A DNA stretch of 47,142 bases, from the NCBI GenBank assembly GCA_018817005.1, contig JAHIUF010000003.1:1-47142 (forward strand), read 5' to 3'. Below the pieces are notes generated by a model that worked only from the letters and a program-made list of their open reading frames with translations, did no database searches and was not told the DNA's origin. This document shows positions 8,186 through 37,702 of this stretch, in pieces. How positions within the stretch are numbered: the first letter of the stretch is position 1; the number at the start of each line of letters is the position of its first letter. Position numbers and translations under genes: made by a program. This stretch comes from Nanobdellota archaeon. Lineage in GTDB: Archaea > Nanobdellota > Nanobdellia > Woesearchaeales > GCA-2686295.

Positions 8186-8252
8186 AGTTTCTCTAACCCT
8201 TGAACATAATTAGAAAACTTTTAGTATATAAAATTTGCGATTTTGATTGGGA

Positions 8253-8753
8253 TTACTTTTTATAGTTGTTTGTTTGCATTTGTTGAAAGAAAATGTGTAA
8301 AAAACTATCTAATGTGTTTTTCTTGTTTTGTTCGCCTGTTACTAATGAGTCGAGATAGTTTTGTGCATTAATATTAGTTAATATTGTGTCTGCAGGAAGA
8401 TTTGTTTGTTCTTCTCGATAATCTATTCGAAAAAAGAATTCTTTTCCTGTTCCGGTTATTATGTCTGGGTTGACAGTCATTATTGTTTTATTTGATAAAA
8501 TAATGATTTCATACAGTTCTTTTCCTTTTTCGAATGTTTTTTTATAAAGATTGTCTCTTTGTTCACCTGTTTTTTTTACCCAATTTTTTATTTCTTCGAG
8601 TTTTTCTTCTGTTGATTTTATTATTTTGTTATCTTGATAGTTCTCTTCGGTATTTTTGAGTGTTGTTTCTTCTTGTTTTGTCGTTGCTGTTTGGGCTAAT
8701 GTTGTATATGTAAATATCAATGGAATTATCATTAATAGGCTTTTTTTGTTCAT
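8253..8753 (-). CDS. Secreted protein of unknown function
   Basis: A 166-residue protein with a clear signal peptide (MNKKSLLMIIPLIFTYTTLAQ), a Thr/Glu/Lys-rich coiled region (about 22-75) and a C-terminal part with beta and helical segments (ILSNKTIMTV, FFFRIDYR). No Cys and no known motif. It is divergent from the L,D-transpeptidase gene, and its TATA promoter contains the 28-bp block repeated at 4382-4409. A shared role with the neighbouring transpeptidase at the cell surface is possible but unsupported. Confidence 0.7.
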   Translation of the reverse strand: MNKKSLLMIIPLIFTYTTLAQTATTKQEETTLKNTEENYQDNKIIKSTEEKLEEIKNWVKKTGEQRDNLYKKTFEKGKELYEIIILSNKTIMTVNPDIITGTGKEFFFRIDYREEQTNLPADTILTNINAQNYLDSLVTGEQNKKNTLDSFLHIFFQQMQTNNYKK

Positions 8754-8776
8754 TAAGTTTATTATTTATTTATTAA

Positions 8777-8804
8777 TATATAAATGTTTCGATTATTAAC
8801 TACT
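8777..8804 (-). promoter_or_regulatory. Promoter of the secreted 166-aa gene, duplicate of 4382-4409
   Basis: Reading on the minus strand, GTAGTTAATAATCGAAAC is followed by the TATA ATTTATATA, 24 bp before the ATG at 8753. All 28 bases are identical to the block before the unknown gene at 4432. It also lies between two divergent genes and could influence the transpeptidase gene. Confidence 0.75.
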
Positions 8805-8825
8805 AAATAGTGATTATTTTAGAAA

Positions 8826-8837
8826 AATTTATAAATA
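8826..8837 (+). promoter_or_regulatory. TATA box of the L,D-transpeptidase gene
   Basis: AATTTATAAATA ends about 20 bp before ATG 8858, the spacing for a leaderless archaeal message. This decides the start at 8858 over the in-frame ATT/GTG-type upstream codons from 8810, which lie on the wrong side of the promoter. Confidence 0.7.
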
Positions 8838-8857
8838 CTCATGTTTTTTGCTTTGTT

Positions 8858-9478
8858 ATGTTAACAAATGTAATTTTATCAATGCTTTTAGGTTTGTCAG
8901 CGCCAGAATCAATTGATACTAAGAAAACATTAGCAGATGATATAAATTCAATTAATATTGAAGAAAGTTTTTCAAATTCAATGTCTGTTTATGATTCTTT
9001 GGCAACCTACGCATTTGATTGGTCAAAAGAACATAATGACTATGCTGTGCTTATTGATAAGAATAAAAGACAACTCTATCTTTTTCATAATGGTTCTGTT
9101 GACACAACTTTTAAAGTTGGTTTAGGATTTAATCCTGTTGATGACAAATTGATAGAAGGAGATGGTTGTACTCCTGAAGGAATTTATTATGTTAGTATGA
9201 AAAAAAATGTTGGTCAAACACATTTTTACAAAGCTTTTTTACTGGATTATCCAAATAAGGAAGATTGGCAAAGATTCAATCAGGCAAAAAAGAAAGGTTT
9301 AATCTCTTCTGATGAATCGATTGGAGGGTTAATAGAGGTTCATGGTTGTGGAAGTTCTATAGATTGGACTTTGGGTTGTGTTGCTTTAAATGATTCAGAT
9401 ATGGATTATTTGTTTCCTTTGATTAAAAGAAATTATAATCCTATTGTTGTAATTGGAACAACCAATCAAGAATTTTGA
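8858..9478 (+). CDS. L,D-transpeptidase-like protein (YkuD/YafK type), exported
   Basis: A 206-residue protein with signal peptide MLTNVILSMLLGLSAPES and a YkuD domain in the second half: KNKRQLYLFHNG (first strands), FKVGLGFNP, GDGCTPEGIYYV and the catalytic EVHGCGSS...DWTLGCVALND with His162 and nucleophile Cys174. The GDG-TPEG and DWT-GC forms are those of the YafK subgroup. In bacteria such enzymes form 3-3 peptidoglycan crosslinks or attach proteins to the wall. An archaeon is not expected to have murein, so the substrate may be another polymer or a bacterial neighbour's wall. The end overlaps the convergent gene by 13 bases. Confidence 0.85.
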   Translation: MLTNVILSMLLGLSAPESIDTKKTLADDINSINIEESFSNSMSVYDSLATYAFDWSKEHNDYAVLIDKNKRQLYLFHNGSVDTTFKVGLGFNPVDDKLIEGDGCTPEGIYYVSMKKNVGQTHFYKAFLLDYPNKEDWQRFNQAKKKGLISSDESIGGLIEVHGCGSSIDWTLGCVALNDSDMDYLFPLIKRNYNPIVVIGTTNQEF

Positions 9479-10266
9479 TAGTCTGTTTTTTCTGGCTTTT
9501 TTTCAAATAGATTTTTTCTAAAAAAGAATACGGCTAAAATAATTATGACAACCACTGCAAGAATAATTATTATTGTATGATAAGAAACTCTTTCTTTTGT
9601 CATAGTTATTTCTTTGTTCAGAATTTGTATTGGTGTGATAGTTGTTTTGTCTTCGTATCCTTGTTTGCTTACCGATACTTCTAAGGTGTAACTGCCAGGC
9701 TTATTTATGGTGAATGATTCTTTGTTTTCTATAATTATTTCTTTGGTATTCTCATCTTTTAATACTATTTTTATATTTGCTTCTAGAGGGTTGTTTATGT
9801 TTAGAAATATATCTTGTTTCTTCATGAAAATCTTGTTTTGATTGTTAAAATTTTTATTGTCACAAATATTTACTTCCAAAGGTATATCTGGATATGATGA
9901 GATGCTAAATGGGATGAATTCTTTATACTCTTTACCTTCATTTATTATATTAACATAATAAATGTAATCTCCCGATGTCCAGTTGGGAAATAATTCTTTA
10001 TCTAAGTATAAATTTCGGGTTTCATTCTCTTCTAAAAATATTTGTTGTTGATTTTCATAAATTACTTCGTTTAACAGAAATAATTGTTCGTTAATTATAA
10101 ATGAAGATGTTTTTTCATTGCTAAGAACAACGATGCTGTCAAGTTGATTTACTTCTTCTAGCAACATATTGTCTTCAATAAGTGACTTAATTTCTAATGC
10201 GTTGACTATTGCAATAAATAATAGATACACAGTGAATATTGTTATTATTGTTTTTGCGAGTTTCAT
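9466..10266 (-). CDS. Membrane-anchored extracellular Ig-like protein
   Basis: A 266-residue protein: signal peptide (MKLAKTIITIFTVYLLFIAI...VNA), an extracellular beta-rich region (about 25-225) that ends in an Ig-like segment (SFTINKPGSYTLEVSV), then one C-terminal transmembrane helix (about 230-250) and a short basic cytoplasmic tail (FFRKNLFEKKPEK). It is the last gene of the giant-protein operon, starting two bases after the stop of the 3589-aa gene, so it may tether or help export that protein, which has no membrane segment of its own. Confidence 0.75.
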   Translation of the reverse strand: MKLAKTIITIFTVYLLFIAIVNALEIKSLIEDNMLLEEVNQLDSIVVLSNEKTSSFIINEQLFLLNEVIYENQQQIFLEENETRNLYLDKELFPNWTSGDYIYYVNIINEGKEYKEFIPFSISSYPDIPLEVNICDNKNFNNQNKIFMKKQDIFLNINNPLEANIKIVLKDENTKEIIIENKESFTINKPGSYTLEVSVSKQGYEDKTTITPIQILNKEITMTKERVSYHTIIIILAVVVIIILAVFFFRKNLFEKKPEKTDYQNS

Positions 10267-10268
10267 TT

Positions 10269-13200
10269 TTATGAGCTTAAAGATATTGGTAAATTAAATG
10301 TTTCAATCTCATTAAGATCTTGGTCGCATATAATAAGAGTAGACCCACTTAAAACATATAATTGTCCATCAAAAATATCTATATAGTCAGCTTTAGTTGG
10401 AAGAAAAATTGATTTATCATCACTAATTCTTATTATTTCTTGTGTTGTTAACAAGTATATTTCTTCATTATTAATTGCCAAATCAATTAAATTTTGACTT
10501 AGTCTTGTTGCTTGGTTGTTTTCTATTAGCCATATGCTTTCTGTGTTGTCTGTGTTTATTGTTTTCATATATGCTTTGTTGTTTTGTTCATCTATCCATA
10601 TTTCGTAAATGCTTTGTGTGTTTGGTGTTGTTATTTTTGTTGCTTGGTTGTTTTCTATTATGTATACGTATATGTTTTCTGTGTTGTCTTCGTTCACTGT
10701 TTTCATGTATGCTTTGTTGTTTTGTTCATCTATCCATATTTCGTAAATGTACTCTATGTCTGGTGTTGTTATTTTTGTTGCTTGGTTGTTTTCTATTATG
10801 TATATGCTTTTTGTGTTGTCTGTGTTTGTTGTTTTCATGTATGCTTTGTTGTTTTGTTCATCTATCCATATTTCGTAAATGCTTTTTGTGTTTGGTATTG
10901 TTATTTTTGTTGCTTGGTTGTTTTCTATTATGTATACGTATATGTTTTGTGTGTTGTCTGTGTTTGTTGTTTTTATGTATGCTTTGTTGTTTTGTTCATC
11001 TATCAATATTTTGTAAATGCTTTGTGTGTTTGGTGTTGTTATTATGTTTGTTGCTTGGTTGTTTTCTATTATGTATATGTTTTCTGTGTAGGAGGGGCTT
11101 CTTGTTTTCATGTATGCTTTGTTGTTTTGTTCATCTATCCATATTTCGTAAATGTACTCTATGTTTGGTGTTGTTATTTTTGTTGCTTGGTTGTTTTCTG
11201 TTAGCCATATGTTTTCTGTGACGGGTTTTGTTGTGTTCATTGTTTTTATGTATGCTTTGTTGTTTTGTCCATCTAAATTAAAATTTACAACTCCATCTTC
11301 AACAGAGAAAAATGAAGTTATAGTTGTTGTTAATTCATTTTCAAGATTTCGTGCTTTAAGAAGACGATTTTTTCTTACATAAAATGCATTCAAATCATTT
11401 ATTTCTATTTTGTTCATTGCCTCTGAAACTACATTTGTGTTTATTATTTCTCCGGTTTGTTTATTGATAGAAAATATCTTGTTAGTTATCGTTATATATA
11501 AATAATTATTATCTTGGGATAAGTCATAATTGTCTGCTATAATCGACCACCATTCTTCATTTATAATTATCTCTGTTGAAAATAAAATATTTTCATTTAA
11601 AACTTTTTGAACTAATAATTTATCATCTTCGGCTTTTAAAAGATAAATGACTCCTGTATTACTATTGTCAGCTTCTATATTTAATATGTTGTTGCTTTCA
11701 TAAACTGTGCTTTCAACATCAGTCTCTAAATTCTTTTCTTTAATGATTCCATCTCTTAAAAAATATAATTTTTTTGAGTTGCTATCTAATGAATAGTCTA
11801 TAACATCTGGATATTCTATGAATAGTGTTGTACTCTCAATTGGTATTTGGTAAAGTGTTTGGGATGATTCGGGAACTCCAAGCATAAATATAGTATTATC
11901 CAAAGCAGAAAATTTGAGATCTGAAGATTTGATAAACAAATCTATGTTTGGTTTTTTTAATACAAAATTTTCATCCGGAAAATTCATGACAACAAAAGAA
12001 TTTTCTGCTTCTTCAGATTTATCAATTGTGCAGAACAGCACATTTTCATCATTAATTGTGGAAGAGCCATATTTTTTTATTTCACAATCATAATTTAAGT
12101 TGCTTTCTGAATTTATGGTGTTCGCTTTGACACTATTTGGAGCACTTATAGTTCCTTCGTTTTTTGTTATAAATAATCTATATTCATCATCATCTTCTTC
12201 AAAAGATGTTATGATGTAGTTATCTGGTTGTGTTGATTCTTCTGCGAGATTCAGTTGTATTGTTGGATCTCCGTATAATATGAAAACAGGCCAAAGAAGT
12301 CTGACTGTGTCGCATACTGATTCAGTATTATCTGCAAGACAGAATGGGTCATTTTCATAGGTTTCATAAACCAATCGTCCGATTTCACCGTTTGTTCTTA
12401 ACAACTGCTGCATCATATCATCTCCTGCACTAGAGCTCATTATCTGTCCATCTATTGTGTTGCTACCAGTCATTGCTCCAAGATAGCCTATGGCTCCATG
12501 CTTTAAGAATTCTGCACCAAAGAGATAACTGCTTAGGTATGTTCCATCATACTCGCTTTGATGATCAACAATATAATTTACTCCCATTCTGAAAAAGGCA
12601 TTCGTGTTGCAAGATGCACCGACACCAAAAACATTATTCATATAAGGGATTACTGGTTTTTTATTGTTGTCAGGTCTGAAATAATTAGTATACCAGTTCA
12701 TCCAATAATAATATACTGAATGTCCATCATAATAGATTATGTCTGAATCAAGGACGTCTTCATCTGCAACTGTGTTCTTAGTACATATTGAATCTCTGGA
12801 ATCAAAAACACTGCAAATAGTTTCATAATAAGGATTGTATAACTTTGCAAGGTTATACATATAATCATTTGAGTCAACATCATCCCCTGCTCGAAGTATA
12901 ACTTTTTCAACAGGTTTAATCATCTTGTTATTTTCATCAGAGAAGAAAATGCTTCTTGCAACATAAGAGGACGTATCCGATGGTGTTATGCCGAATATCC
13001 TGCCAACATATTTAACAGGGTTTGGATTATTCATTCTAGCAGCATAGCAACTCTTATCACTATAGCCGTTAGATTTCAAAGCAAGACATTCATCAACGCT
13101 TGGAGGCTCTGTTCCTTGAGGTAAGAAATTGTGATTGGCAAGAATAGTTATGTATTTTAAATCATTATATGCATAGATTTGATTATATCCGCCATTGACG

Positions 13201-16200
13201 AATGCAATTTTTTCTTCTTTTGCAAAGCTTAAAACAGGTGCGCTTAATGAATCTTTCCAGAACACTTTTTGAAGAGCAATACCCTGATCATTTATTTGGT
13301 TTGTAACTGCAAAGTTTTCTATGTCATTAGTGTTTATTACCAGAATTTTGTCAGAATTAGAATATAATTGTTCTCTTAATTCTTCTTTTGTAAAGCTTTG
13401 AACTACATTACCAGCAAGGGTTATATCTCCAACAACAATAATCTTTTTTGATAGTATTTCAGGACTTATTTCATCGTAATCTTTGAAAAGCAGTGGTGCA
13501 TTTTTTTGTGCTGCAAGAATACTTGCAAGAAGACCAGTATCATAATCATCTTCGCTTATGACAACAGTTGTTATTTCTTCCCAAAACTCTAAATATTTAC
13601 TATTCGTTATTTGTTCATAACTCCCTTCTTCTAAATTTGCACCCACAATTACTTGCGTTCCTGGTTGTTGAGTAGTATCATCATAGAAATAAGCTTTATC
13701 AGCACCCCATTTTGTGACGAATTCTGTTACTGAGTCAGTATCAAAAGCATAATCTCCACTTACTTCTTCTTCATGATATATCAACAAAGGATATAGACAT
13801 TTTCCGGGTCTGTTTCCATCTTGACAGGATATATCGTTTATGTTAGTCCATGATGAAAGTGGCGTTGCTTTCAATGGTTTATGCCAGTCTTCATCAGTTG
13901 TTATAATAACTGTTTTGTCAGTGAATTTTGTCATATCTTTTTTGTTATTTAAAACTTTTAAATTGCAGCTATCAGGCACAAAGTTTCCGTTTACATCATC
14001 GATTGTTCCTTCACATACTATTTCTGTTATTGAGTCATCACCGGTTACTTTTCCGGTTATCTTTTCAAGTCCTCTAGTTACAAATCCTGTTATGTCTTTT
14101 ATTGCGTTTCCTGTACCACCGCTAGTGCTTCCTGTTCCAAATCTTAGTGTGAATCTTGCTGTGAGTGTTGGTTGTTCTCCTGTGCTTAAGTCTTTTGAAA
14201 CTCTAAGGTCGATTTTTAGGTTTGAATCTGTGAATTGTTTTTCAATGCTTAATGCGATTGCGATTTCTGCCTTGTCTTGTAACAACAATTTGTTTACATC
14301 TGGTTTTATGTTTAGTTTGAAGCTTCCCGAATCTTTTTCTGCTATTTGTGTTGCTGCAATTGCTGCTGCTCCTTCCATTCCTGGTTCGCCTATAAAGTCT
14401 TTTTTCTGAAATGAGGTTGTGAAAAAAGAAGTCATATCTGTAAATTTATTCATGCTGTCTTCCATAAATGCTGGCATATAAGAATAAACCCAGTTAATAT
14501 CATATTTATCCTTAAATGCGCTTTGGAATGCTCCTAAAAACTCGTTTTGTGTTAAGACTCCGTCAATTATTTTAGTTGAAATCTGCGCTGTAAAACTTTC
14601 CATGAGTTCATTGTTAAAAACGTTGTATGATGAATACTGTTTTTGTGCATAATGGTCAAGATTCATATCTGCTATTAGTTTGTATTGGTCATAATTTGCT
14701 TCAAATCGGTAAGGGTTTATCGCGCAGCTAGAACCTTCTTCTGCTTCGTCGCCTGTTACCATTTCTGTTATTGCAATGACGCTTCCTGTAGGTGGTGTTG
14801 GGGGTGTTAGGTCTGGTTTGCACATTCCTTCTTGACAAACACCTTTTTTGCCGTTTTCAAGCCATGCTTTTAGTTTTTCGTAATCTTTTTCAATACAACT
14901 AACATCAACGCATGATGAACCATCATTCGAACCAGTACATTCATATGAGTCTGCTGCAGGGTCAACGGTGAATGACCAGTCATTAACTTTGCGGTTTAAA
15001 AGATGATCATAGGCAATTATGCTTGCTTTGTAAAGACCGGGATCAAGATGTTTTGGCGTGTATATTAATATATTATTTACAAATGTTAAATCCGCAGCGG
15101 ATACGCTTTCGAATCCTTGATTACTGCTATCTTGAATATAAAATTTATACTTGTATATTCCTGTGTCAGAATCATCTTCAGCATCTGTTATTTTTGCTGA
15201 AATATGTATGTTTTGTCCAACAGTACTTCCATCCGCAGGATATAATTCTGTAATATCAGGCTGGTTGTTATCTTGGCTGTAACAAGAATACATATATTTG
15301 TTTTTCAACATTAATTCCATGCATTCTTCATTTACTCTTCCAAAACCATGATTGAATTCTTCTGGTGTTAGAAATTCTTGGTTTCTCATTATTCCAATGC
15401 TTGTAGGTCTAATATTACTGTTTATGTAAGAGCATCCTTGATATTGTCCAACCACTAATCTTGGAAACTCTCCAGAGATTGTTTCGGCAGGTCCTTCTCC
15501 TATAAGATTGCCAAATAGGGAATTAATTCCCCAATACTCATCTACATCTTCGGCTGGTGCACAATTAGGTTTTTGTGTATGATCACCAATGTCTGTTTCA
15601 ACATATTCATCTACTAGACCGCCAAAAGCATGTCCGAATTCGTGGATAAAAGTTCTTTCCAAATCTTCTTGATTTGTATTTGTGGATAAATACATGTCTC
15701 TCTGTTTAATTGGTTGGATGACTTTAGACCAATCAAATTCTGTTGATACAAAACTTCTAAAAGGAGATTCGTAGCTAAAAACAAAATCGAAGTTTGATGG
15801 AAACATCTGAACCACTGGCGTTGCCATTATTGATGCATCTCCTGATGCGTAACTTAAGTAATAGAAATGTAACAGTTGTTGATATTCTGGTTTGTTGAAT
15901 GGATAAACTTGTAGTAATCTATCTATGACGCTTGAAACGTGACTTCTAAATAATTGGTGATGAGGATAATCCATACCTATTATTTTAAAAACATAACCAA
16001 CATCACCATTTTCATCCTGTAAACTTCCTGAGTTAGGATATTTTAACCATACAAAGTCATCAGAATCCATATCATAAAAGGTAATTGTTTGTGAGTAAAT
16101 TACAACTCCTTCATCCCAAGGAGTATCAGGATTTGCTCGCATTATGACTTTGAACAAGTATTCTTTTCCAAGTTCAATTAGCGAGTTTTCTTTAGGTGTT

Positions 16201-19200
16201 TGTATATTATAACCTATGTTAACGCGAAAGAGATCATTACTGCCAGCTATTCTTTTTATATCATTTATGAACATGCATGGTTGAGGATTTATTATTTGAC
16301 CAGTTATAGGATCAATTAAATTTATCTTTAAGTGTTTATTATAATATTTGTCTGTATCTCCTTCTGCATATGTAGGATCATAATTAAGCACTAAATCCAT
16401 CTGAATATAACCAACGTATGTGTCTGTAAATGCTTTTAAAAATGAGTATTCTCTGGCATTTGTATCGATAAGACCTGTTGTTTTCAAATACTCTCCTAAT
16501 ATTTGGGTTGTTAATTGTTTTACAGTATCTAGTTGGTAACTTGAACCCCCAATATTATAGTTGTGTAAAATCTTTTTACACTCTACAAGTGCTTCTCGAT
16601 AAAGTTGTTTGTTAATTAATAATTTTACATAGGTGATGTGTGCATCAATTGCGTATCCTCTTCCTTGCCATTCTTTTAAATATTGTTCAAAATAATCTTT
16701 AGCGGTATCGGAATCGCCTACTAAAACATAGAAATGAGTTGCTAATTTTGCAAGAGCCATTCCAATTACTTTGTCATTATTATTTGACTGAGTCTCTATT
16801 AATTCTTGCATGGTAAAGATGAATTTCCCATCATCTAATTTTAAGTTAATTAGTCCTTTTAAAAAATAAGCAGAACTTATGATGAATGATGTGGGATAGT
16901 CAGTAATAACTTCTTGAAATAAAGGAAGTGCATCTTCATAGTTTTCTGAATTGTACAAGCACTTGGCTTTTAAGTATTTTAAATATGCAATGTAGTCGAT
17001 TGCATTAGGACAAGAATTAACAAATGTATCGATTGTTGTGCCGATGACACCTGTGGTGCAACTCTCTTTTGAGTATGGTTCTACATAACATGTTTCTTTA
17101 GCTTCGTCAAAGAGTGTTTGACAGTCCCCCTCTAACACGCTGATAATAGCAGTAACTGTTGTTGGTTCAGAATATCTGGTGTCGTCCCAGCCGTAATTAT
17201 AATTGTCAAAAACTTTTGCTTTGCATGTGACTTTATCTCCACTTTCAGTTGGAGGGAAAAATATGTTTGCAAAACATTGGTACTGCTTGTTTTCAGAATC
17301 ACCATATTTTTCAATACAATGAGTTGGTGAAAACACTTCGCCTTCTGTTTTTTCTTTTTCAACACCAAATTTATCAGTGATTGTTATAGAATATAACATG
17401 CTAATATCTTCCAATTCACTATCAATATCTGTTATGTTTGCTATGCAGGTTATATCCCTTTCTTTTAAAGGATTTTCAGGCCAAATTCTTAAAGAAGTGA
17501 TTGTTGGTGGTTCATTGCTGCCTTCAGTAATTTTAAAGTTCCATTCATATAAACCATTAATTGGAAGTCCTGCAAAATCATAGGCAGATACACTTACTTT
17601 AACATCATCTCCTATATTGAAGTATTCGTCCGGGTGAAATGAAACGACTAATTTATCTTTATTAGGATAGTTAGGATAATCAGTGATTATTGAACCTTGA
17701 ACATCAGTAAAACCATTCTTAGTAACTGTTACATCAACATTTTCACTCATGCCGTTATTATCTTCTATCCAAATAACTATGCTTGTTTTTGTATCTGAGG
17801 TTTCTGTTGGTTCATAAGATGATATTTGTGGGGGAGTTATGTCTTCTTTAACATTTAATTGTTTGGCTGCTTCAGAATAAATATCTCTGTTGTCAGCCAC
17901 GTATGCGTAGAATGTGTAGTCCGGTTCTCCGACAATATCATCAATGTATTCTGCCACCCAATTACTTGTAATAAATGTTGATCTATCGTAATTTGTAATT
18001 GTATATGCTGCTGGTTGTGTCTTTGCAAGTTCAAAATTATTTCCACTGCTTTCGCCATTATCTAATGCGAACATTACATCTTCAAAACTAGGTTTACCTA
18101 TTAAATTATCATATTCAAATACAACAAAATTAATGGTTTTTCCAATGCAACCAAAATGATAATATACAGATGTGCCAATATTTATACCTTGGTAAGTTTT
18201 ATATTTATAGTTATCTAATGATTCAACGCCGTATGTATCAGTCCAGTCAACAAAGAGTTTGCAAGGACTGTTACATTCACCATTGATGCAAATGTATCCG
18301 GCTTGTTCGCAGTCTTCTTTGAAAGCCCATTCACCCAGACCATTTTCATCTAAAACACATTCCATAACCAGGTTATTATCACAAGCCCTTTTTTTACTGG
18401 AATCTGTTTCTAACGCTGAATAATAATTATTATTCATACTGCACACATCTTCACCAATTTGTCTGCATTCACCACTCATACAAACTTTACCTTCAGGACA
18501 AATACTTAATAGTTCTACACAAGATCGTTCTTTGCTTTCAGAATCATAATCCCTTGAGCAGGTATATTCAATAACTGTTTCAGAATCTAGGCATTCATCA
18601 TTGTAGGTTCCTCGGGAATCTTTACATTCACCTAAAATTTCTGGATTGTTAAACACTTTTTCTTCAGGGCTGCCTCTGTCTGTTTCAATACAAGACCATG
18701 AATCTGTATCATCACTTACGCATTCGCCGTATTCACAATGAGTTCCTCTAGAGCAAGCCACTTGAATCTTAGAGCAGATACCATTTGGATAAACATTGCT
18801 TGAATAATCACAATATTGTTCATAAACAGTGTTTTCATCAACACAAGAGTCCCATCCGTTTGCAGCTGTTGAATCGCAGAATCCTTTTACACTTGGATCA
18901 ACACCAAAACCATCTGTGTCAATACAGAAGTCACCATCTGTAGGTATGGCTTTGCAGCCTTTATTATTAACGTCACTTCCAGAACTGCAGACAAGGTTTG
19001 GACTTTCACAACAATCATCATCAGAAGTTACAACATACTCAAATTCATTGTCAATTGTTTCACCTTCATCGCAAGTTCTGCACACAGGCCCTTCACACCA
19101 AGGACTTTTGGCTCGTATCATACAAGGTGTTATATCCATGCATGTTTTAAGACAGCATGATTCACCGGTAAATGGTAGAGTTGTCAAGTCAACTTTTTCA

Positions 19201-21038
19201 AACGTAACCTCATCAATACACTGCATATATCTTGGATTGCTTGATTCATCTTCGCATTCTTCTTTTGTTTTTCCACCCCTCTCACTGCAGGTTCTTGTAT
19301 CGATACATGTTCCTGCAAAACATTCTTCATAAGTATTTGGACAGCAAGTACTTTGGCCAGACTTAATCCATTTTGTTGTTGGAATATTATGATCAGTAGA
19401 ACATTGATAGCAAGTATCTGAAAAGCATTGTATATCTCCAATCTTACCTCCAGGGTCGTTATCTTTGTTTTCTCCACATAAAGGAACACATTCTCCTTCA
19501 GAACAAACATATCCACTAATTGCAGGGCAGTATATGTGTTCTGTTTCAACACCATTTTCACATCTCATTACTTGGCCTGTATTAGTATTAACACCAAATT
19601 CATTAACTTCACAATATTTGGAACCGTGAGGTATGTCATAGCCACAGTTGCAGCCAGCGATGTTGTTCTTACTTGTTGGTTCTATTGTTGAATCAGAATC
19701 CTTATAGCTGCACCCAAACTCACAAATATTTGTTTCCCATCTGTAAAGTTTTGCAAATTCTTCTCTTTCACAAGTGTGAACATCATTCCAGCAAACCTGT
19801 TCGTTTTCTTCAAACCAGATTCTGTTGCTTAAACTTTTATAATTGTTATCATTGTATTCATACTGACAAGTCCTAGGTATACAAACCATGTTTTCTTTTA
19901 TTGTAGATGGAGAACAGCTTTCTATATTTGCAAGTTTTATAGTTTTTTTATTACAATCAAAAATATATTCACAGCAAGGATCTTCTGATTTATCATCATA
20001 TATATACTTGCTACTCCAATCACTAATGAAATTTAAACCGAGAAGTCCCCAGTAATCATCACCGACAGGACCATATTCACCACAATAATTTGAAAGTCCA
20101 CATTGACCATCAATGCACGAACTTTCAGAACCATATTCATATGTGCAGTCAAATTCAGTATTGGCAAGCTCTTTTTCTATACTTCCATCAATGCATCGAT
20201 ATACAAAATATGAATCTTCACCACAGGTTGTTTGACCGTTTAACACAGTATTTCCTTGATTGTCAACACAGTTGCAACCACAAAAAATATCATTAACTGA
20301 ATAACAAGCTTCTCCCCAAGCAGCACCTGCCGTACGAGTGTTATGACAACCAGAATCTCCGCAATCATTTATGGCTTTCCAATAAGCAGGATTTGTTGTT
20401 TGATCAGTAAAATCTTCATAAACACAAGCATATCTTTTTGTTTGATCACTTATAAGATGATTTTCATCACAGATAACCATTGTGTAAGAATCAAACTCTC
20501 CATCAAAATAGCTTGCGGGCCACTCGTTTAAACCAAGCCCTGCTAATAATTGTAAAGTCCAGTCTAATTGGGAGTATGTAGGATATTCACAGTAAGGTTC
20601 TCTCACATGAAATTCGTAAAGGTCAGAGTCTGACAACTCGCTTTGGATAGTGCTGTCATCAGGATCAATCGCTTGTACACTCCAATAACAGGTATAAACA
20701 TGTTCTAATTCCAATGCTTCTTCATCACTGAATTGATAAGCAATAAAATCATCTGCTGAAGTGATTTCTTTGTTGAATTCAAAAATATCACCGTAATCAT
20801 CATCCACACAAGAAACAGTTAAATTATATCTTGTAACATCAGATCCTTCAGTATCAGTTGATGCAAACCACAAAAGAGCTGGTTTCATCTTATAAACCCA
20901 ACTATTATGACCATTTATTGGTGCATTCAGTTCAGGCTTTAACGGTGGCTCATTCGCAAGAACAAACGAGATGTTTAACATGCTGAAGATTATCAAGAAG
21001 AGGACCAACACTCTTATATGATTATTCTTGTTCATCAT
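10269..21038 (-). CDS. Giant (3589 aa) secreted Cys-rich protein with M64-type and C25-type peptidase domains
   Basis: Signal peptide (about 1-29), then an FN3/Ig-like domain (30-150), a long Cys-rich region (about 150-960), Ig-like segments (1050-1310), TPR-like helices (about 1315-1490), a zinc peptidase region with HEFGHAFGGLVDEY (His1799, Glu1800, His1803) and a following GC-Y..RPT..MR pattern as in M64 peptidases, another Ig-like domain (about 1925-2010), a caspase-like region resembling gingipains (C25) with DGHS (His2773), GASCNTN (Cys2810) and YGDPTIQL (about 2922), and a C-terminal beta-propeller-like part with six repeats. It starts by ATGA overlap with the 280-aa gene. No membrane anchor is seen. 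Two peptidases in one chain are unusual. Confidence 0.85.
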   Translation of the reverse strand: MMNKNNHIRVLVLFLIIFSMLNISFVLANEPPLKPELNAPINGHNSWVYKMKPALLWFASTDTEGSDVTRYNLTVSCVDDDYGDIFEFNKEITSADDFIAYQFSDEEALELEHVYTCYWSVQAIDPDDSTIQSELSDSDLYEFHVREPYCEYPTYSQLDWTLQLLAGLGLNEWPASYFDGEFDSYTMVICDENHLISDQTKRYACVYEDFTDQTTNPAYWKAINDCGDSGCHNTRTAGAAWGEACYSVNDIFCGCNCVDNQGNTVLNGQTTCGEDSYFVYRCIDGSIEKELANTEFDCTYEYGSESSCIDGQCGLSNYCGEYGPVGDDYWGLLGLNFISDWSSKYIYDDKSEDPCCEYIFDCNKKTIKLANIESCSPSTIKENMVCIPRTCQYEYNDNNYKSLSNRIWFEENEQVCWNDVHTCEREEFAKLYRWETNICEFGCSYKDSDSTIEPTSKNNIAGCNCGYDIPHGSKYCEVNEFGVNTNTGQVMRCENGVETEHIYCPAISGYVCSEGECVPLCGENKDNDPGGKIGDIQCFSDTCYQCSTDHNIPTTKWIKSGQSTCCPNTYEECFAGTCIDTRTCSERGGKTKEECEDESSNPRYMQCIDEVTFEKVDLTTLPFTGESCCLKTCMDITPCMIRAKSPWCEGPVCRTCDEGETIDNEFEYVVTSDDDCCESPNLVCSSGSDVNNKGCKAIPTDGDFCIDTDGFGVDPSVKGFCDSTAANGWDSCVDENTVYEQYCDYSSNVYPNGICSKIQVACSRGTHCEYGECVSDDTDSWSCIETDRGSPEEKVFNNPEILGECKDSRGTYNDECLDSETVIEYTCSRDYDSESKERSCVELLSICPEGKVCMSGECRQIGEDVCSMNNNYYSALETDSSKKRACDNNLVMECVLDENGLGEWAFKEDCEQAGYICINGECNSPCKLFVDWTDTYGVESLDNYKYKTYQGINIGTSVYYHFGCIGKTINFVVFEYDNLIGKPSFEDVMFALDNGESSGNNFELAKTQPAAYTITNYDRSTFITSNWVAEYIDDIVGEPDYTFYAYVADNRDIYSEAAKQLNVKEDITPPQISSYEPTETSDTKTSIVIWIEDNNGMSENVDVTVTKNGFTDVQGSIITDYPNYPNKDKLVVSFHPDEYFNIGDDVKVSVSAYDFAGLPINGLYEWNFKITEGSNEPPTITSLRIWPENPLKERDITCIANITDIDSELEDISMLYSITITDKFGVEKEKTEGEVFSPTHCIEKYGDSENKQYQCFANIFFPPTESGDKVTCKAKVFDNYNYGWDDTRYSEPTTVTAIISVLEGDCQTLFDEAKETCYVEPYSKESCTTGVIGTTIDTFVNSCPNAIDYIAYLKYLKAKCLYNSENYEDALPLFQEVITDYPTSFIISSAYFLKGLINLKLDDGKFIFTMQELIETQSNNNDKVIGMALAKLATHFYVLVGDSDTAKDYFEQYLKEWQGRGYAIDAHITYVKLLINKQLYREALVECKKILHNYNIGGSSYQLDTVKQLTTQILGEYLKTTGLIDTNAREYSFLKAFTDTYVGYIQMDLVLNYDPTYAEGDTDKYYNKHLKINLIDPITGQIINPQPCMFINDIKRIAGSNDLFRVNIGYNIQTPKENSLIELGKEYLFKVIMRANPDTPWDEGVVIYSQTITFYDMDSDDFVWLKYPNSGSLQDENGDVGYVFKIIGMDYPHHQLFRSHVSSVIDRLLQVYPFNKPEYQQLLHFYYLSYASGDASIMATPVVQMFPSNFDFVFSYESPFRSFVSTEFDWSKVIQPIKQRDMYLSTNTNQEDLERTFIHEFGHAFGGLVDEYVETDIGDHTQKPNCAPAEDVDEYWGINSLFGNLIGEGPAETISGEFPRLVVGQYQGCSYINSNIRPTSIGIMRNQEFLTPEEFNHGFGRVNEECMELMLKNKYMYSCYSQDNNQPDITELYPADGSTVGQNIHISAKITDAEDDSDTGIYKYKFYIQDSSNQGFESVSAADLTFVNNILIYTPKHLDPGLYKASIIAYDHLLNRKVNDWSFTVDPAADSYECTGSNDGSSCVDVSCIEKDYEKLKAWLENGKKGVCQEGMCKPDLTPPTPPTGSVIAITEMVTGDEAEEGSSCAINPYRFEANYDQYKLIADMNLDHYAQKQYSSYNVFNNELMESFTAQISTKIIDGVLTQNEFLGAFQSAFKDKYDINWVYSYMPAFMEDSMNKFTDMTSFFTTSFQKKDFIGEPGMEGAAAIAATQIAEKDSGSFKLNIKPDVNKLLLQDKAEIAIALSIEKQFTDSNLKIDLRVSKDLSTGEQPTLTARFTLRFGTGSTSGGTGNAIKDITGFVTRGLEKITGKVTGDDSITEIVCEGTIDDVNGNFVPDSCNLKVLNNKKDMTKFTDKTVIITTDEDWHKPLKATPLSSWTNINDISCQDGNRPGKCLYPLLIYHEEEVSGDYAFDTDSVTEFVTKWGADKAYFYDDTTQQPGTQVIVGANLEEGSYEQITNSKYLEFWEEITTVVISEDDYDTGLLASILAAQKNAPLLFKDYDEISPEILSKKIIVVGDITLAGNVVQSFTKEELREQLYSNSDKILVINTNDIENFAVTNQINDQGIALQKVFWKDSLSAPVLSFAKEEKIAFVNGGYNQIYAYNDLKYITILANHNFLPQGTEPPSVDECLALKSNGYSDKSCYAARMNNPNPVKYVGRIFGITPSDTSSYVARSIFFSDENNKMIKPVEKVILRAGDDVDSNDYMYNLAKLYNPYYETICSVFDSRDSICTKNTVADEDVLDSDIIYYDGHSVYYYWMNWYTNYFRPDNNKKPVIPYMNNVFGVGASCNTNAFFRMGVNYIVDHQSEYDGTYLSSYLFGAEFLKHGAIGYLGAMTGSNTIDGQIMSSSAGDDMMQQLLRTNGEIGRLVYETYENDPFCLADNTESVCDTVRLLWPVFILYGDPTIQLNLAEESTQPDNYIITSFEEDDDEYRLFITKNEGTISAPNSVKANTINSESNLNYDCEIKKYGSSTINDENVLFCTIDKSEEAENSFVVMNFPDENFVLKKPNIDLFIKSSDLKFSALDNTIFMLGVPESSQTLYQIPIESTTLFIEYPDVIDYSLDSNSKKLYFLRDGIIKEKNLETDVESTVYESNNILNIEADNSNTGVIYLLKAEDDKLLVQKVLNENILFSTEIIINEEWWSIIADNYDLSQDNNYLYITITNKIFSINKQTGEIINTNVVSEAMNKIEINDLNAFYVRKNRLLKARNLENELTTTITSFFSVEDGVVNFNLDGQNNKAYIKTMNTTKPVTENIWLTENNQATKITTPNIEYIYEIWIDEQNNKAYMKTRSPSYTENIYIIENNQATNIITTPNTQSIYKILIDEQNNKAYIKTTNTDNTQNIYVYIIENNQATKITIPNTKSIYEIWIDEQNNKAYMKTTNTDNTKSIYIIENNQATKITTPDIEYIYEIWIDEQNNKAYMKTVNEDNTENIYVYIIENNQATKITTPNTQSIYEIWIDEQNNKAYMKTINTDNTESIWLIENNQATRLSQNLIDLAINNEEIYLLTTQEIIRISDDKSIFLPTKADYIDIFDGQLYVLSGSTLIICDQDLNEIETFNLPISLSS
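10500..11275 (-). repeat. Six coding tandem repeats of 44-46 residues in the giant protein
   Basis: The unit reads DEQNNKAYMKT...NTEN-IY-IIENNQATKITTPNT...IYEIWI and occurs six times, with the first and last copies diverged. At DNA level the units are about 135 bp and very similar, which points to recent expansion. The pattern of short beta strands suggests propeller blades or a beta-solenoid. Confidence 0.85.
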
Positions 21039-21877
21039 TTAACCTTTTCAACCCTTATTTGACATATTTCTTTAAGTTTTGAATCTGCTATTTTATCGCA
21101 TGTTGAGCTTGCCCGATTCTTTGTTGCATATATATCGTAGCAAACATTCTTTATTTCCAAGTCATCTATTAACTCACAAAGATTGTCTCTGGTTTTTGTG
21201 ATGCTTTTCTTTCTATAATCTTCATCGAGGACAGGATCTTTTGGTTCTATGCACTCGCCGAATATGCTGCAGATAAGTCCTTGCGGGCACCCACAAATAC
21301 TGCACGAATCTCTTAATACCAATGGCTCTTTTATGATTTCTTTGACAACAATGTTATCAATTAAAATGTTAATATTATCTGGAGAGCTGAATGATAGTTT
21401 TTTATTCCAACCCTCATTTGTTTCTGTGAAAAATTTGTAACGAACTTTTATCCAGTTAAAACTTTCCTTAATCAAAGTGAATTTTTTGCTTGTAGGAATT
21501 CCTTCAATTTCAGTTATTAATCTTACATCACCATCAGTTGAGCGGGCATGAAACATTACTTCATAATAGGTATTTTGCTTGATGTAAAAAGGAATATCTT
21601 GATATGCTTCTTGAGATGAATCTGTAAGGACTATTTTACCACATTGTTCATCATCAGGATAACAATCAACTTTGTTCCATATAGGTTGAATATATCCAAA
21701 CCATCTTATTATTGAACACCCATAATCATTGACTTTCATTCCTGCAGGTGTAATTGGACATAAATCTATAGAATCATCAATTCTATCATTGTCTGAATCA
21801 ATTCCTGTTACTATTTGAAGCGAAATAAATATTGTGATTAAAATATATATAGTTATGAGTTCTTTTTTTCTTTTCAA
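21035..21877 (-). CDS. Secreted Cys-containing protein with TSP3-like calcium motif
   Basis: A 280-residue protein: signal peptide (about 1-26), a thrombospondin type 3-like calcium motif DSDNDRIDDSIDLCP, a beta-sandwich (about 60-185, carbohydrate-binding style, NWIKVRYKF and NINILIDNIVV), a CGCPQGLICSIFGEC module shared with neighbouring surface proteins, and a C-terminal helical Cys region. It overlaps the nucleotidyltransferase gene before it and the giant gene after it by four bases each, so the three are translationally coupled. Confidence 0.78.
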   Translation of the reverse strand: MKRKKELITIYILITIFISLQIVTGIDSDNDRIDDSIDLCPITPAGMKVNDYGCSIIRWFGYIQPIWNKVDCYPDDEQCGKIVLTDSSQEAYQDIPFYIKQNTYYEVMFHARSTDGDVRLITEIEGIPTSKKFTLIKESFNWIKVRYKFFTETNEGWNKKLSFSSPDNINILIDNIVVKEIIKEPLVLRDSCSICGCPQGLICSIFGECIEPKDPVLDEDYRKKSITKTRDNLCELIDDLEIKNVCYDIYATKNRASSTCDKIADSKLKEICQIRVEKVK

Positions 21878-22431
21878 ATTAATCTTTCTCCGTTTTTGAT
21901 TATGTCTTTTATTAGCGGGTCTTGTTTGTTTTTGTAAAATTCTTTTTTGTCAAAAAAGTGAATTTCAAGTTTGATTGCATACTTTTTTTCTAATTTCGAT
22001 ACTAAATTAGTGACTTTTTTGTTGTTGATTTTACCCAGTATTGCTATATCAACATCTGATTTTTGATTAAATATTAATTTTGAATACGAGCCGAAGAGGT
22101 ATACTTCTATTTCTTTTAAGATTGAAAGTTGTGTGATGAAATCTGTTATTAAGAAGTAGATTTTTAAAGGCAGTTCTTTTAAGTTTATGTATTGCTTTGA
22201 ACAAATATCTGTAAGCTTTTTTGAATTATCATTTTCGAAGTTGATTGAATATAGTCTTTTTTCTTTTTTAAGAATGTTTGCAGACAATATTTTGACTAAT
22301 GCTTTATCCAATAAAACATTGTTCATATATGTTTTTTCTTTTATTTCGTTTCGATTTAGTTTAATTCCGGGAGCTAATGCAAATAAACTTATTATTTTGA
22401 AACATTCTTGATTGAATATTTGAGTTATCAT
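21874..22431 (-). CDS. Nucleotidyltransferase (MNT type) with N-terminal winged helix
   Basis: 185 residues. The first 85 or so look like a winged-helix domain (LNRNEIKEKTYMNNVLLDKAL, then ILSANILKKEKRLYSIN). The second half is a minimal nucleotidyltransferase: FGSYSK...SDVDIAIL supplies the GS and DxD catalytic motif, and IKLEIHFFDKKEF supplies the third acidic strand. MNT proteins paired with HEPN proteins are antitoxins that AMPylate or oligoadenylate the toxin. It overlaps the HEPN-like gene by four bases (ATGA) on one side and the secreted protein on the other. Confidence 0.8.
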   Translation of the reverse strand: MITQIFNQECFKIISLFALAPGIKLNRNEIKEKTYMNNVLLDKALVKILSANILKKEKRLYSINFENDNSKKLTDICSKQYINLKELPLKIYFLITDFITQLSILKEIEVYLFGSYSKLIFNQKSDVDIAILGKINNKKVTNLVSKLEKKYAIKLEIHFFDKKEFYKNKQDPLIKDIIKNGERLI

Positions 22432-22916
22432 TTTTCTTTTATTAATATCTTAATTTTTTCTAAGTATGGTGCAACTACTTCTTCTAGGAACTTTGAAGCT
22501 TTCTTCTGATATTCTTTTTTCATAAAATCTGTTCCCGTGTAATATTGTGATTTGACTCGTTCTTTTTTTGCTTCGGCCAAATCATTTGCTAATGTTATGA
22601 ATTCTCCATATCCTTTTTCAATAAGTGTTAATAGTTCTTTGTTTTTTATTAGTTCTCTTAATACTTTGATTGTTGTGGCATGAACTTCAAATTCAATTTT
22701 TATTCTGAAATTCTTGGCGAGTAATAGTTTTGTGATATCATGCATGGCGTAATAACCTGAGATTATGCTCCATCTGGAAAACTCATTTTTGATGAATATA
22801 CTGTGTTCTAAATTTTCTTTATAGGAGTTTTCGAAAAAATTTACATATCTGAATAGTTCTAATTCATTTATTTTGCTTATTTTCTTTTGTTTAATTAAAA
22901 CTTCAAGTTTTACCAT
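22428..22916 (-). CDS. HEPN-like partner of the nucleotidyltransferase
   Basis: An all-helical 162-residue protein. The segment WSIISGYYAMHDITKLLLAK is typical of HEPN helix 2, followed by a long helix with HATTIKVLRELI and a C-terminal KERVKSQYYTG stretch as in many HEPN proteins next to MNT genes. A strict RX4-6H motif is not obvious (RIKIEFEVH is the closest), so RNase activity is uncertain. It is the first gene of the operon leading to the 3589-aa protein. The ATG is leaderless, about 28 bp after a TATA box. Confidence 0.65.
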   Translation of the reverse strand: MVKLEVLIKQKKISKINELELFRYVNFFENSYKENLEHSIFIKNEFSRWSIISGYYAMHDITKLLLAKNFRIKIEFEVHATTIKVLRELIKNKELLTLIEKGYGEFITLANDLAEAKKERVKSQYYTGTDFMKKEYQKKASKFLEEVVAPYLEKIKILIKEK

Positions 22917-22936
22917 TTTTTTAGTATAATTATTGT

Positions 22937-22950
22937 TTTATTTAAATATT
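22937..22950 (-). promoter_or_regulatory. TATA box of the HEPN/MNT/giant-protein operon
   Basis: On the minus strand AATATTTAAATAAA is centred about 28 bp before ATG 22916. It is the only good promoter seen before the five-gene coupled operon that runs to 9466. Confidence 0.6.
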
Positions 22951-23005
22951 TTACTTCTTTTTTGGTATTTTAATTCTTTTTTTGTTTCATAGGCAGATTT
23001 ATTCT

Positions 23006-26000
23006 TCATCCTTCCACCTCATCCAAATCAACATAAACCCAATTATAACCATTGCACATATAATCAGCATTTACAGACCTGAAACCTTGAGCTTCAGTAA
23101 ATCCAAGTTCAGAGCCTTTCTTAGACATGCCGTTCACAAACATACAGCTCTTTTCAATACCGCATTTATTTATATCATCATCAAAAGTTTCAGGACAAAT
23201 ATCTGGCTGAACAGGAATACAGTCATGATTAGCATTAGGCACATCTATTATTCCGTAGCAGCATCCGGTGTTGCCGTTTGCTTCAACAACATTTTCTCCA
23301 ATATCATCGCCACAGCAGAAACTACCAGTCCAGACAAAGCCTCTGTCTGCTGTCAGACAAGCAGTTTCACTGGTATCGGAATCAACACAAGCACCTCCCT
23401 GACAGACAAAGTTTGGCGATAAATCTGTATCACAAGGGAGAGTAATTGTTTCAATAGCATCGTTTGCCCCTGCACCATTAATGTATTTTTCTTTGACATA
23501 CAAATTATCTGAAGTGCAAGTATCCATTGATATTCCAGCTGAGCAATCTTGGCTTTTTGAATATACACAATTATTAGCAAGCACCACCGTAAGCCATGCA
23601 AAACAAGCTATGGGATGTTTACTTGTGGTGCAGGCTACTGCTGATATTGAGCCTGCAAAGTTTACTATATCATTAAGTTTTTTCCCACATTCACACACAT
23701 CTCCTGTTACTTTTCCATCTTCCATGCAGTCTTTACCAATCATTCTATCAACACAATATTGATCAGTACTCATTAGTAGTATATCAGTAGCCATATATCT
23801 GTTCACGCATTTTTCATTTTCATCACAAAGACAGCTTTCCTCATTACAAACAGTGCCACTTTTCATATCATTAGGATCAAGATAATATCTTTCATCAGAT
23901 CCATCAGTCATATGACACCAACCACCAATCTCATCAACTATTGAATTTGTTATTGTGTCTGTTGTTTTAATCTGAACTTCATTGCAACTTACAGAACAGG
24001 TTCCTCCACAGCAATAATACCCTGGACTGCAGATTGTCCCACCGCAACTGCATTCTCTGTTTAATAATCCTTCTTGACATGTAGGTGCTGGTCCGCATTC
24101 GCAGTTATCATCGCATCTGCCAATACAGTTTGCTTTTGCGCCTTCAAGTATTGTGTCTGCTTGAATGTCACAAACCTCTGATTCTTGGTTTATTATTCCA
24201 TCCATACAAGTTACTTCTGCGCAGATGCAGTCAGGTTTGCAAAGCCCTGGGCAGCTTCCTCTTGCATTTCCATCGCACAGCTCGACTATTCCTTGGTCGT
24301 TTAATTCTTGAACAACGCCATCACCGCAATACGTGAATGTTTCACCAACGATTCTTTTAAGGCCTGCGTTTTCAAGCAGGTTTGCGTTTCCGCAATATTG
24401 AGGCTGGTCAACTGAACAACTGCCTTTTGGCGTGTTGTCTTCGCAAACATCCAGGCATTCACCATAGAATCCGCATTCGATACCTGCGGCACAGCCGCAT
24501 AAGAAACAGTTAGGCAGCAGTTTTACGTTTTCTCCTTGGTTTTCAAGATTTATAGAGTCAATGTATAAATATTTGTTTTCTTCAAAATTATAGCCTGAAC
24601 CAATATGCAAACTCATCATGTGTGCGTTTACAGGTATTTCAAAGGTTTCTGAGTATTTATCATAGGTGAATCCTGCAACATTTATTGTTTTTTTCACACA
24701 ATATTCATCAATGCATTCATCCCAGTTTTCTAATCTTGCACTCATCTCATTGCCGTTTTCATCATAAAAGTAAAGTCTTATCATAAGTTCGTTTTCAATA
24801 TCTGATGCTGCAAAGAAAGTTAGTAAATATGTTGATTCTGATTCAACATTAATAAATGACTGGCTGACATGTGCATAGTTATTATCAGTTCTTAAAGCGT
24901 TCGAACCTCTATAAACATAATTTGTTGTGAGTTCAATATTCTCAGATTCAAAATACCAATCAGTGATTAAATTATCTTCAACAAACTCGAAGTCACCGTT
25001 TAATATGTGATTTTCAAAGCCACAATAATTCTTATATCCATTGCATTCACCATATGCAGTTCCATCTTCACATGTCGGTCCAACAAGTATCTTATTTGAT
25101 GATGCTATTGAATCTTCAAGGCCTGCAATGTTTCCACCGGTATTTACGATGAAATAATATTCAAGTCCAAATGTTTCATCATCTTCTACTTGTTCTTCAA
25201 CAACCCAAGATATTGCATCGTATATTTTTCCATCACTTCCAAATCTTTTGTTTGTCGGTACGATTTTGACTTTGTCATCTCTTTCATTAGCGTCTTCATC
25301 CATTATGAAAAAAGTCAGTTCTTTGTCGTTACAATCTTTTCCTTCAATTAATAAATAAACTGTATCGCCTGGTTTTGCGTGGATTTCATCAATTATTCCA
25401 TCATCTTCGACCGTCATGCTCCATTTAGCTTTTGTAAGACTACAAATTTGTTGAGCTTTACAGGTTCCATCAGGATGGCAAATACTATCGCCAGGACATA
25501 TTTCACTATCTGTTGGCTGCCAAGTTTTATCATCTCCAAGGCAATTATCTGATTCAAAACCACTCTGTGCATCACAGTATAATGGGAATTGGAATTGTCG
25601 TATGTCAAGAATCCACCCATTAAGCGACCCGTCGGATATTTGTAATCCTGCTATTGATTCTGGAGAAGCAATTATTTCGCTTACTTTATCGCTTTCCAAA
25701 CAGTATTCATCACAGTATTTGAGTGATAAGTCACCGTTAAACATCAGGAAGTTTTGTCCTTCAAGAGCATTATTTAGATTGAGTGACTGAATACCATTCT
25801 TATTAATAATCCCTTTATCTAAACTTATTGAACCAGATTTTATTGTTAGTGTTTGAGAATTGTCAAGGCTTTCAACCTTGAATCCTTGCCCACTACTTGG
25901 CAGACCATAATAATCTATACCGTAACCTTTGAGTACAGGACTAAACTTACCCATGAGTGTTTTTTCTTCTTCAGGAGCATTAGGATTGCAGTGTAATCGT

Positions 26001-30811: not shown

Positions 30812-30812
30812 C

Positions 30813-34584: not shown

Positions 34585-34630
34585 CTTAAATCCCCCCTTA
34601 AAATCCTCTTTTTAAAATAAATTTATCTTC

Positions 34631-34652
34631 TACTATTTAAATGTTTTTTTTT
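34631..34652 (-). promoter_or_regulatory. Promoter of the GIDCGGPC-repeat protein operon
   Basis: On the minus strand a run of A is followed by CATTTAAATAGTA. Its 22 bases equal 1599-1620 upstream of the small Cys protein. Predicted initiation about 25 bp downstream gives a leader of about 30 bases that contains GGGGGGA before the ATT start. Confidence 0.55.
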
Positions 34653-34671
34653 GGGTTTTAACAACAAAAAA

Positions 34672-36777: not shown

Positions 36778-36784
36778 ATAAAAA

Positions 36785-36828
36785 CCTCCCTTTTCTACTT
36801 TTTTAATTCTTAAGATATTTAAATATTT
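36785..36828 (-). promoter_or_regulatory. Promoter and ribosome binding site of the S8 protease gene
   Basis: On the minus strand a TATA box AAATATTTAAATATC (36814-36828) precedes the Shine-Dalgarno GGGAGG (36785-36790), which ends seven bases before ATG 36777. Predicted leader about 20 bases. Confidence 0.6.
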
Positions 36829-36887
36829 CTTTTAAGCGAAATTTAATTCAAAACATTTTTTAAATAAAAACTTATTTTTCTTTTTGT

Positions 36888-37190
36888 ATGCCAACTGTTT
36901 TTGAAGAAAAAATCTATCTTACACTTCGTAAAGTTCCAAGAGACAAAGTTACGACTTATGGTGAGCTTGCAAGAGCTGTTGGAACTAGAGCTTATCGGGC
37001 TGTTGGAAATGCAATGAATAAAAACCCTTATGCTCCTGCTGTTCCTTGCCACAGGGTTGTGTGCAGTGATGGAAGAATTGGCGGCTTTAGAAGTGGTGTT
37101 GATAAAAAAATTTCTCTTTTGAAAAAAGAAGGTGTGCAGGTTAAGAAAGGTTTTGTTTTGGATTTTGAAAAGAAATTGTTCAGGTTTTAA
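36888..37190 (+). CDS. Methylated-DNA--protein-cysteine methyltransferase (Ogt/MGMT, catalytic domain only)
   Basis: A 100-residue protein equal to the C-terminal domain of Ogt/AGT. The helix-turn-helix (VPRDKVTTYGELARAVG), the Arg finger and Asn hinge region (RAVGNAMNKNP), the active site PCHRV with Cys54, and IGGFRSG are present. The protein transfers an alkyl group from O6-alkylguanine to Cys54 in a suicidal repair reaction. The usual N-terminal domain is missing, as in the compact alkyltransferases and related ATL proteins, but Cys is retained, so repair rather than only recognition is likely. Leaderless, with a TATA-like box about 25 bp upstream. Confidence 0.9.
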   Translation: MPTVFEEKIYLTLRKVPRDKVTTYGELARAVGTRAYRAVGNAMNKNPYAPAVPCHRVVCSDGRIGGFRSGVDKKISLLKKEGVQVKKGFVLDFEKKLFRF

Positions 37191-37193
37191 CCA

Positions 37194-37646: not shown

Positions 37647-37702
37647 GAAAATTTTAAGATTTTATAGCTATATATAGTTTTCGATTAGAATTCTTCGATT
37701 TT

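Follow-up and report, generated by a model that had tools for sequence, protein, structure and literature searches.

Metallo- and cysteine peptidase domains joined in one giant predicted exported protein of a woesearchaeote

Introduction

Does one exported archaeal protein carry two unrelated peptidase domains, and what might such a chain do outside the cell? The question is raised by a giant gene in a 47,142-nucleotide stretch from a Nanobdellota archaeon (assembly GCA_018817005.1, contig JAHIUF010000003.1), referred to here as the window, whose archaeal origin is supported by a SecD encoded within it that is 75% identical to the SecD of a Ca. Woesearchaeota MAG. M64 peptidases are best known from gut IgA proteases. 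A first-pass annotation read the gene as a secreted chain that combines an M64-like zinc peptidase with a gingipain-like C25 cysteine peptidase. The present study examines both domains, the remainder of the chain and its genomic setting.

Results

An uninterrupted frame with the motifs of two peptidase families

The gene is a single frame of 3589 codons with an ATG start and no internal stops, lying at exactly the coordinates first proposed for it; the strand, left unstated at that time, is minus.

10269..21038, minus strand: giant gene, encoding a 3589-aa predicted exported protein that combines an M64 and a C25 peptidase domain
20952..21038, minus strand: signal-like hydrophobic N-terminal segment, residues 1-29 (hydropathy 2.74 over residues 10-28)

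The motifs that had been named likewise occur at their assigned residues: HEFGHAFGGLVDEY from His1799, followed by GCSY (1868), RPT (1877), MR (1884) and VNE (1902), and then His2773 in DGHS, Cys2810 in GASCNTN and YGDPTIQL (2922). The separation between the two sets, given as about 970 residues, is 974 from His1799 to His2773. Residues 1-29 would act as a signal peptide. A hydropathy scan of the 3589-aa chain found no second strong hydrophobic segment, and thus neither a C-terminal transmembrane segment nor a membrane anchor.

A full-length Pfam scan of the chain matched neither M64 nor C25, and relatives of each domain were therefore gathered; a search of the genome contigs with the whole chain found none. 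Because the window sequence alone is below threshold in Pfam, assignment of both domains rests on these relatives and on predicted folds. Leave-one-out profiles were built without the window sequence, and 500 shuffles of the 3589-aa protein, used as the control, gave zero matches to the C25, CWB2-like plus C25 or M64 profiles.

The M64 domain

15279..15989, minus strand: M64 (igalysin) catalytic domain, residues 1684-1920 (leave-one-out profile, PF09471 in relatives, Foldseek)
15603..15644, minus strand: zinc motif HEFGHAFGGLVDEY, residues 1799-1812 (H, E, H, D, E and Y invariant in 33 sequences)
15384..15395, minus strand: Met-turn GIMR, residues 1882-1885 (Met1884 invariant in the M64 alignment)

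The leave-one-out M64 profile matches the giant chain at about 1e-24. All 33 members of the M64 alignment match PF09471, which on the window sequence itself reaches E=0.003, below the cut-off. A plain search against solved structures found the Bacteroides M64 proteins 3p1v (E=0.0026) and 4df9 (E=0.014) at residues 1785-1889, and a profile built from M64 relatives of the same order found 3p1v at 4.6e-21 and the Thomasclavelia ramosa IgA protease at about 4e-12. The family signature is HExxHxxxGxxD with a family Glu, a Tyr switch and a Met-turn (PMC12237041). The segment HEFGHAFGGLVD at residues 1799-1810 fits this signature, its H, E, H and D being invariant across the 33 sequences, and the invariant columns of the alignment comprise H1799, E1800, H1803, D1810, E1811, Y1812 and M1884. 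The best 17 Foldseek matches of the predicted model are all M64 structures, with E down to 5e-8. Model quality is good in the catalytic core alone and poor outside it (mean pLDDT 59); the poor modelling of the flanks keeps whole-model TM scores against the matched structures as low as 0.25-0.33.

The M64 structures also hold a second, structural zinc, bound by a Glu and three Cys, which is not a family-wide criterion (sources including PMC12237041). The window domain has the Glu, Glu1811, and no Cys ligand at the Met-turn, where Gly1882 stands, or at the two later positions. The archaeal M64 set has two other invariant cysteines, C1826 and C1869, which perhaps form a disulfide.

The CWB2-like and C25 domains

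13239..13919, minus strand: CWB2-like domain, residues about 2374-2600 (profile, weak Pfam match, Foldseek list)
12234..13271, minus strand: C25 (gingipain-like) catalytic domain, residues 2590-2935 (profiles, PF01364 in relatives, Foldseek)
12720..12722, minus strand: catalytic His2773, context DGHS (alignment of C25 relatives)
12609..12611, minus strand: catalytic Cys2810, context ASCNTN (invariant among aligned relatives)

For C25, the leave-one-out profile matches the giant chain at 2.5e-27, and a joint profile of the CWB2-like and C25 domains does so at 1.9e-82. PF01364 is matched by 17 of the 25 members of the C25 alignment (best 1.7e-16) and not directly by the window sequence; a PF01364 search of the window's own genome gave no match, nor did the controls. 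H2773 and C2810 fall in invariant columns, in the order and at the spacing of C25. The profile of the relatives matches gingipain R (1cvr) at 1.2e-4, pairing the GHG of that protein with the family His, and an alignment of the profile with 4ief extends to the region of the catalytic Cys. Among Foldseek matches of the predicted C25 model (pTM 0.85), RgpB and Kgp are the best and the sole ones with E below 0.001. The M64 and C25 regions, as modelled, therefore appear to match M64 and gingipain structures at the level of the fold, the comparison on which the first-pass annotation had staked its assignment. Profiles, structure prediction and Foldseek together bear out its central claim, that two unrelated peptidase folds occur in one exported archaeal chain.

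Directly N-terminal of C25 is a CWB2-like domain that had been overlooked. The profile of this family matches Clostridioides difficile Cwp8 at 1e-4 and SlpH at 1.9e-4, and Cwp8 is also among the Foldseek matches of the CWB2-like plus C25 region; PF04122 on the CWB2-like region stays below its cut-off (E=0.0025, 18.8 bits against 24.9). The order CWB2-like then C25 recurs across the archaeal class, in some cases with an insert between the two.

A Gly directly following the catalytic His is usual in clan CD. It is found in 17 of 19 aligned rows, with Ala in one, and in the window the residue after His2773 is Ser. This GHS instead of HG calls for caution about the activity of the C25 domain, not about its fold. 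It also bears on the reading in which the M64 domain, the C25 domain or both are inactive and serve as a binding or scaffold module. That reading could further draw on the C25 tree, where the window sequence is divergent, on a long branch and unreliably placed, on the failure of Pfam to detect C25 and to raise M64 above threshold in the window sequence alone, and on the missing Cys ligands of the structural M64 zinc. We nevertheless judge it very unlikely, since the residues with a direct catalytic part are all kept: H1799, E1800, H1803, D1810, Y1812 and M1884 in the one domain, H2773 and C2810 in the other. On these residues, the window M64 domain would be a working zinc peptidase and the C25 domain a working cysteine peptidase.

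Other parts of the chain

18249..20591, minus strand: Cys-rich region with roughly 75 Cys, at residues about 150-930
16539..17021, minus strand: TPR region, residues about 1340-1500 (PF13174, E=9.6e-5)
14949..15266, minus strand: Ig-like domain after M64, residues 1925-2030 (Big_7, E=0.003, below the curated cut-off)
10505..11275, minus strand: tandem repeats of 46 aa (5.7 copies of a 138-bp unit)

The catalytic domains had been described as joined to TPR, Ig-like and propeller parts. The TPR part is borne out by PF13174, and TIGR02795 also matches there at E=3.1e-5, below its cut-off. The Ig-like parts come down to the weak Big_7 match, and the propeller to about six 46-aa tandem repeats, which are possible beta-propeller blades. 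The Cys-rich region has no Pfam match.

Distribution of the two domains and integrity of the fusion

Within the order, M64 profile matches were found in 88 of 353 genomes and C25 profile matches in 20 of 353; C25 was present in 18 of the 371 genomes sampled across the archaeal phylum. The two families circulate as separate proteins in the archaeal class. Across genomes of the phylum, the window protein is the only one with M64 and C25 in one frame among the long frames retrieved around C25 and M64 matches, a few of the retrieved C25 frames running off a contig end, where a fusion to M64 is possible. Both enzyme families, exported archaeal C25 peptidases and giant DPANN proteins were already known; what is new, among the genomes examined, is the joining of M64 to C25. 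A narrow literature search found no earlier report of archaeal M64.

Several features of the relatives were recorded along the way. Many M64 frames of the order are about 380-420 aa long, and the aligned members are without the structural-zinc Cys of the bacterial structures. A same-genus C25 protein (L051, G001:C27) has a type I dockerin at residues 244-299 (PF00404, E=2e-5), and one relative (L006, G051:C5), matched through an Ig-like part, has an open frame of 8836 aa.

A fusion seen in no other genome examined, in a draft assembly of 91 contigs, could have been created by an assembly error that joined two separate genes. The 3589 codons nevertheless form one uninterrupted frame, and the start and stop of the gene abut neighbours on the same strand. 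Moreover, the DNA at the junction occurs once in the genome, and both overall and third-position G+C stay even from one side of it to the other; we therefore regard an artefact as extremely unlikely.

Genomic setting

8186..37702, no strand assigned: 29.5-kb block with the whole exported-protein cluster, missing from this position in five relatives
7553-8185: GTPase gene flanking the block
37703-38221: pilin-like gene flanking the block
8810-9478, plus strand: YkuD L,D-transpeptidase domain (PF03734, E=4e-15)
9466..10266, minus strand: 266-aa exported protein with a C-terminal transmembrane segment, downstream of the giant gene at a distance of 2 bases
21035..21877, minus strand: 280-aa exported protein, 4-base overlap with the giant gene
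21874-22916, minus strand: HEPN-like and MNT nucleotidyltransferase genes (PF05168, E=0.003, below cut-off; PF01909, 2e-7)
23006..30811, minus strand: 2601-aa exported PKD / CBM_4_9 / Big_5 protein (Pfam)
34672..36777, minus strand: subtilase (S8) with a fervidolysin-like propeptide (PF00082, 1.5e-40; PF22148, 1.1e-10)

The GTPase and pilin-like genes adjoin in five relatives, which belong to the same genus or family as the window organism. The gap between them is 73 bases in the same-genus genome G001 and less than about 0.8 kb in the other four, whereas in the window they are 29.5 kb apart. The simplest reading is that the block was inserted in the window lineage; its loss in the five relatives is possible. 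Neither repeats, direct or inverted, nor a tRNA nor a clear G+C shift was found at the borders.

One strand of the block encodes the subtilase, three exported proteins (the 2601-aa protein among them), the HEPN-MNT pair, the 280-aa protein, the giant chain and the 266-aa protein. The HEPN-like and MNT genes share a 4-base overlap and the pair also overlaps the 280-aa gene. Because the last five genes of the block overlap or abut, their arrangement suggests that they would form one transcript. The 266-aa protein is a candidate membrane partner of the giant chain.

Other contents of the block can be noted in their own right. The HEPN-MNT genes constitute a toxin-antitoxin-type pair within an exported-protein operon. 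To our knowledge, archaea generally lack peptidoglycan, the substrate of the YkuD L,D-transpeptidase. A region of about 95 aa at the N terminus is common to the subtilase (36412-36711, minus strand) and a 391-aa neighbour (34207-34512, minus strand) at 60% identity, and recurs in a separate M64 protein from another family (L042, G016:C37; 34%, E=2.8e-9); it is possibly a module of exported proteins. At the edge of the island, a short protein (36888-37190, plus strand) resembles by eye the DNA-binding part of methylguanine methyltransferase.

Discussion

Our analyses suggest, with a probability of about 0.55, that the giant chain of this woesearchaeote is a proteolytic machine, secreted or associated with the surface, in which M64 and CWB2-like plus C25 domains are joined to adhesive parts and which has a nutritional role. 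Specifically, the chain would be exported by Sec. Encoded in an island of secreted proteins that is specific to the lineage, it would bring together an M64 metzincin, an endopeptidase, and a CWB2-like plus C25 unit. Its Cys-rich, Ig-like, repeat or propeller-like and CWB2-like parts would be adhesive and hold it on the cell surface or on a polymer, possibly via the co-encoded 266-aa membrane protein. Both active sites, with the co-encoded subtilase, would then cut external proteins into peptides for uptake, with two catalytic classes at work, probably three with the subtilase. At one estuarine sediment site, C25 peptidases were the commonest predicted exported peptidases, and C25 is known in archaea from Bathyarchaeota and Thermoprofundales (PMC6752024); this abundance and presence favor a nutritional role. 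Set against it are the Ser beside the C25 His, the poor model of the M64 flanks and the want of a membrane anchor in the chain.

The window domains resemble known enzymes in their catalytic parts and differ in context. The Bacteroides M64 proteins BF3526 (4DF9/9QDI) and BACOVA_00663 (3P1V), the best profile and Foldseek matches, have the zinc motif, third-ligand Asp, Glu, Tyr and Met-turn of the window domain; they are bacterial proteins of about 400 residues, and their structural-zinc Cys are missing in the window. As in the window, the M64 domain of the T. ramosa IgAse is set within a long exported multidomain chain, and its C606-I-M608-R is equivalent to the window Met-turn GIMR; unlike the window chain, it has one protease, a sortase motif and no second peptidase, and it cuts IgA (PMC12237041). 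The window chain shows no sign of IgA specificity. The gingipains RgpB, RgpA and Kgp share with the window the C25 fold and the order and spacing of His and Cys. RgpA and Kgp also join the protease to adhesin parts. In contrast to the window chain, the gingipains have GHG rather than GHS, no CWB2-like domain or second peptidase, and T9SS export in Bacteroidota. The C25 proteins of Bathyarchaeota and Thermoprofundales are, like the window chain, exported archaeal gingipain-like enzymes, from sediment, although the part of the source consulted reports no M64 partner for them (PMC6752024). Finally, the CWB2-like domain of the window, N-terminal of C25, is a single divergent unit below the Pfam cut-off when set beside the C. 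difficile CWB2 proteins Cwp8 and SlpH.

Gingipain precursors, with their adhesin parts, are matured by proteolysis. By analogy, one peptidase might process the giant chain or its island neighbors, several of which are long exported proteins encoded beside it, leaving external work to the other. No cleavage site or propeptide was identified for the M64 or C25 domain, and the neighboring subtilase, which has its own propeptide domain, could process as well; we hold such a maturation role to be decidedly unlikely.

A further alternative is interspecies attack or host attachment in the manner of SPEARE, with the adhesive parts binding a host and the peptidases opening its S-layer or surface proteins. 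The DPANN context, the size and adhesive domains of the chain and the lineage-specific island speak for it, as do the giant surface proteins of nanohaloarchaea, which have been proposed to act in host interaction (PMC6642349; PMC10266531). SPEARE of Nanohaloarchaeota is indeed a giant exported DPANN protein with adhesion domains, like the window chain (PMC6642349). It is, however, membrane-anchored with a cytoplasmic ATPase domain, whereas a VirB4/TraG-like ATPase, a pore toxin and a cytoplasmic part all went undetected by Pfam in the window chain, which also lacks a C-terminal transmembrane segment. Moreover, the serine-protease claim for SPEARE is itself disputed (PMC10266531), in contrast to the two peptidase domains supported here. 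We consider this alternative unlikely. The predatory, host-attachment or self-processing machine originally proposed is possible but unsupported: neither an ATPase for injection nor a pore domain or membrane anchor was found in the chain, and nothing points to self-cleavage. In a broader version, a horizontally spread or recently assembled island would be an extracellular attack system acting on the surface of a partner cell, its metallo-, cysteine and serine peptidases working together with the two-protease chain central and surface-held; this we regard as quite unlikely.

The preferred reading, a proteolytic machine with a nutritional role, concerns a chain in which profiles, the conservation of active-site residues and the fold all speak for two catalytic domains, while the protease of SPEARE is disputed. 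M64 peptidases are frequent in this order of archaea, and the pairing of a CWB2-like domain with C25 is an architecture conserved in archaea. With support for both domains, a direct test comes within reach of whether small archaea use giant multi-enzyme chains to digest or attack external material.
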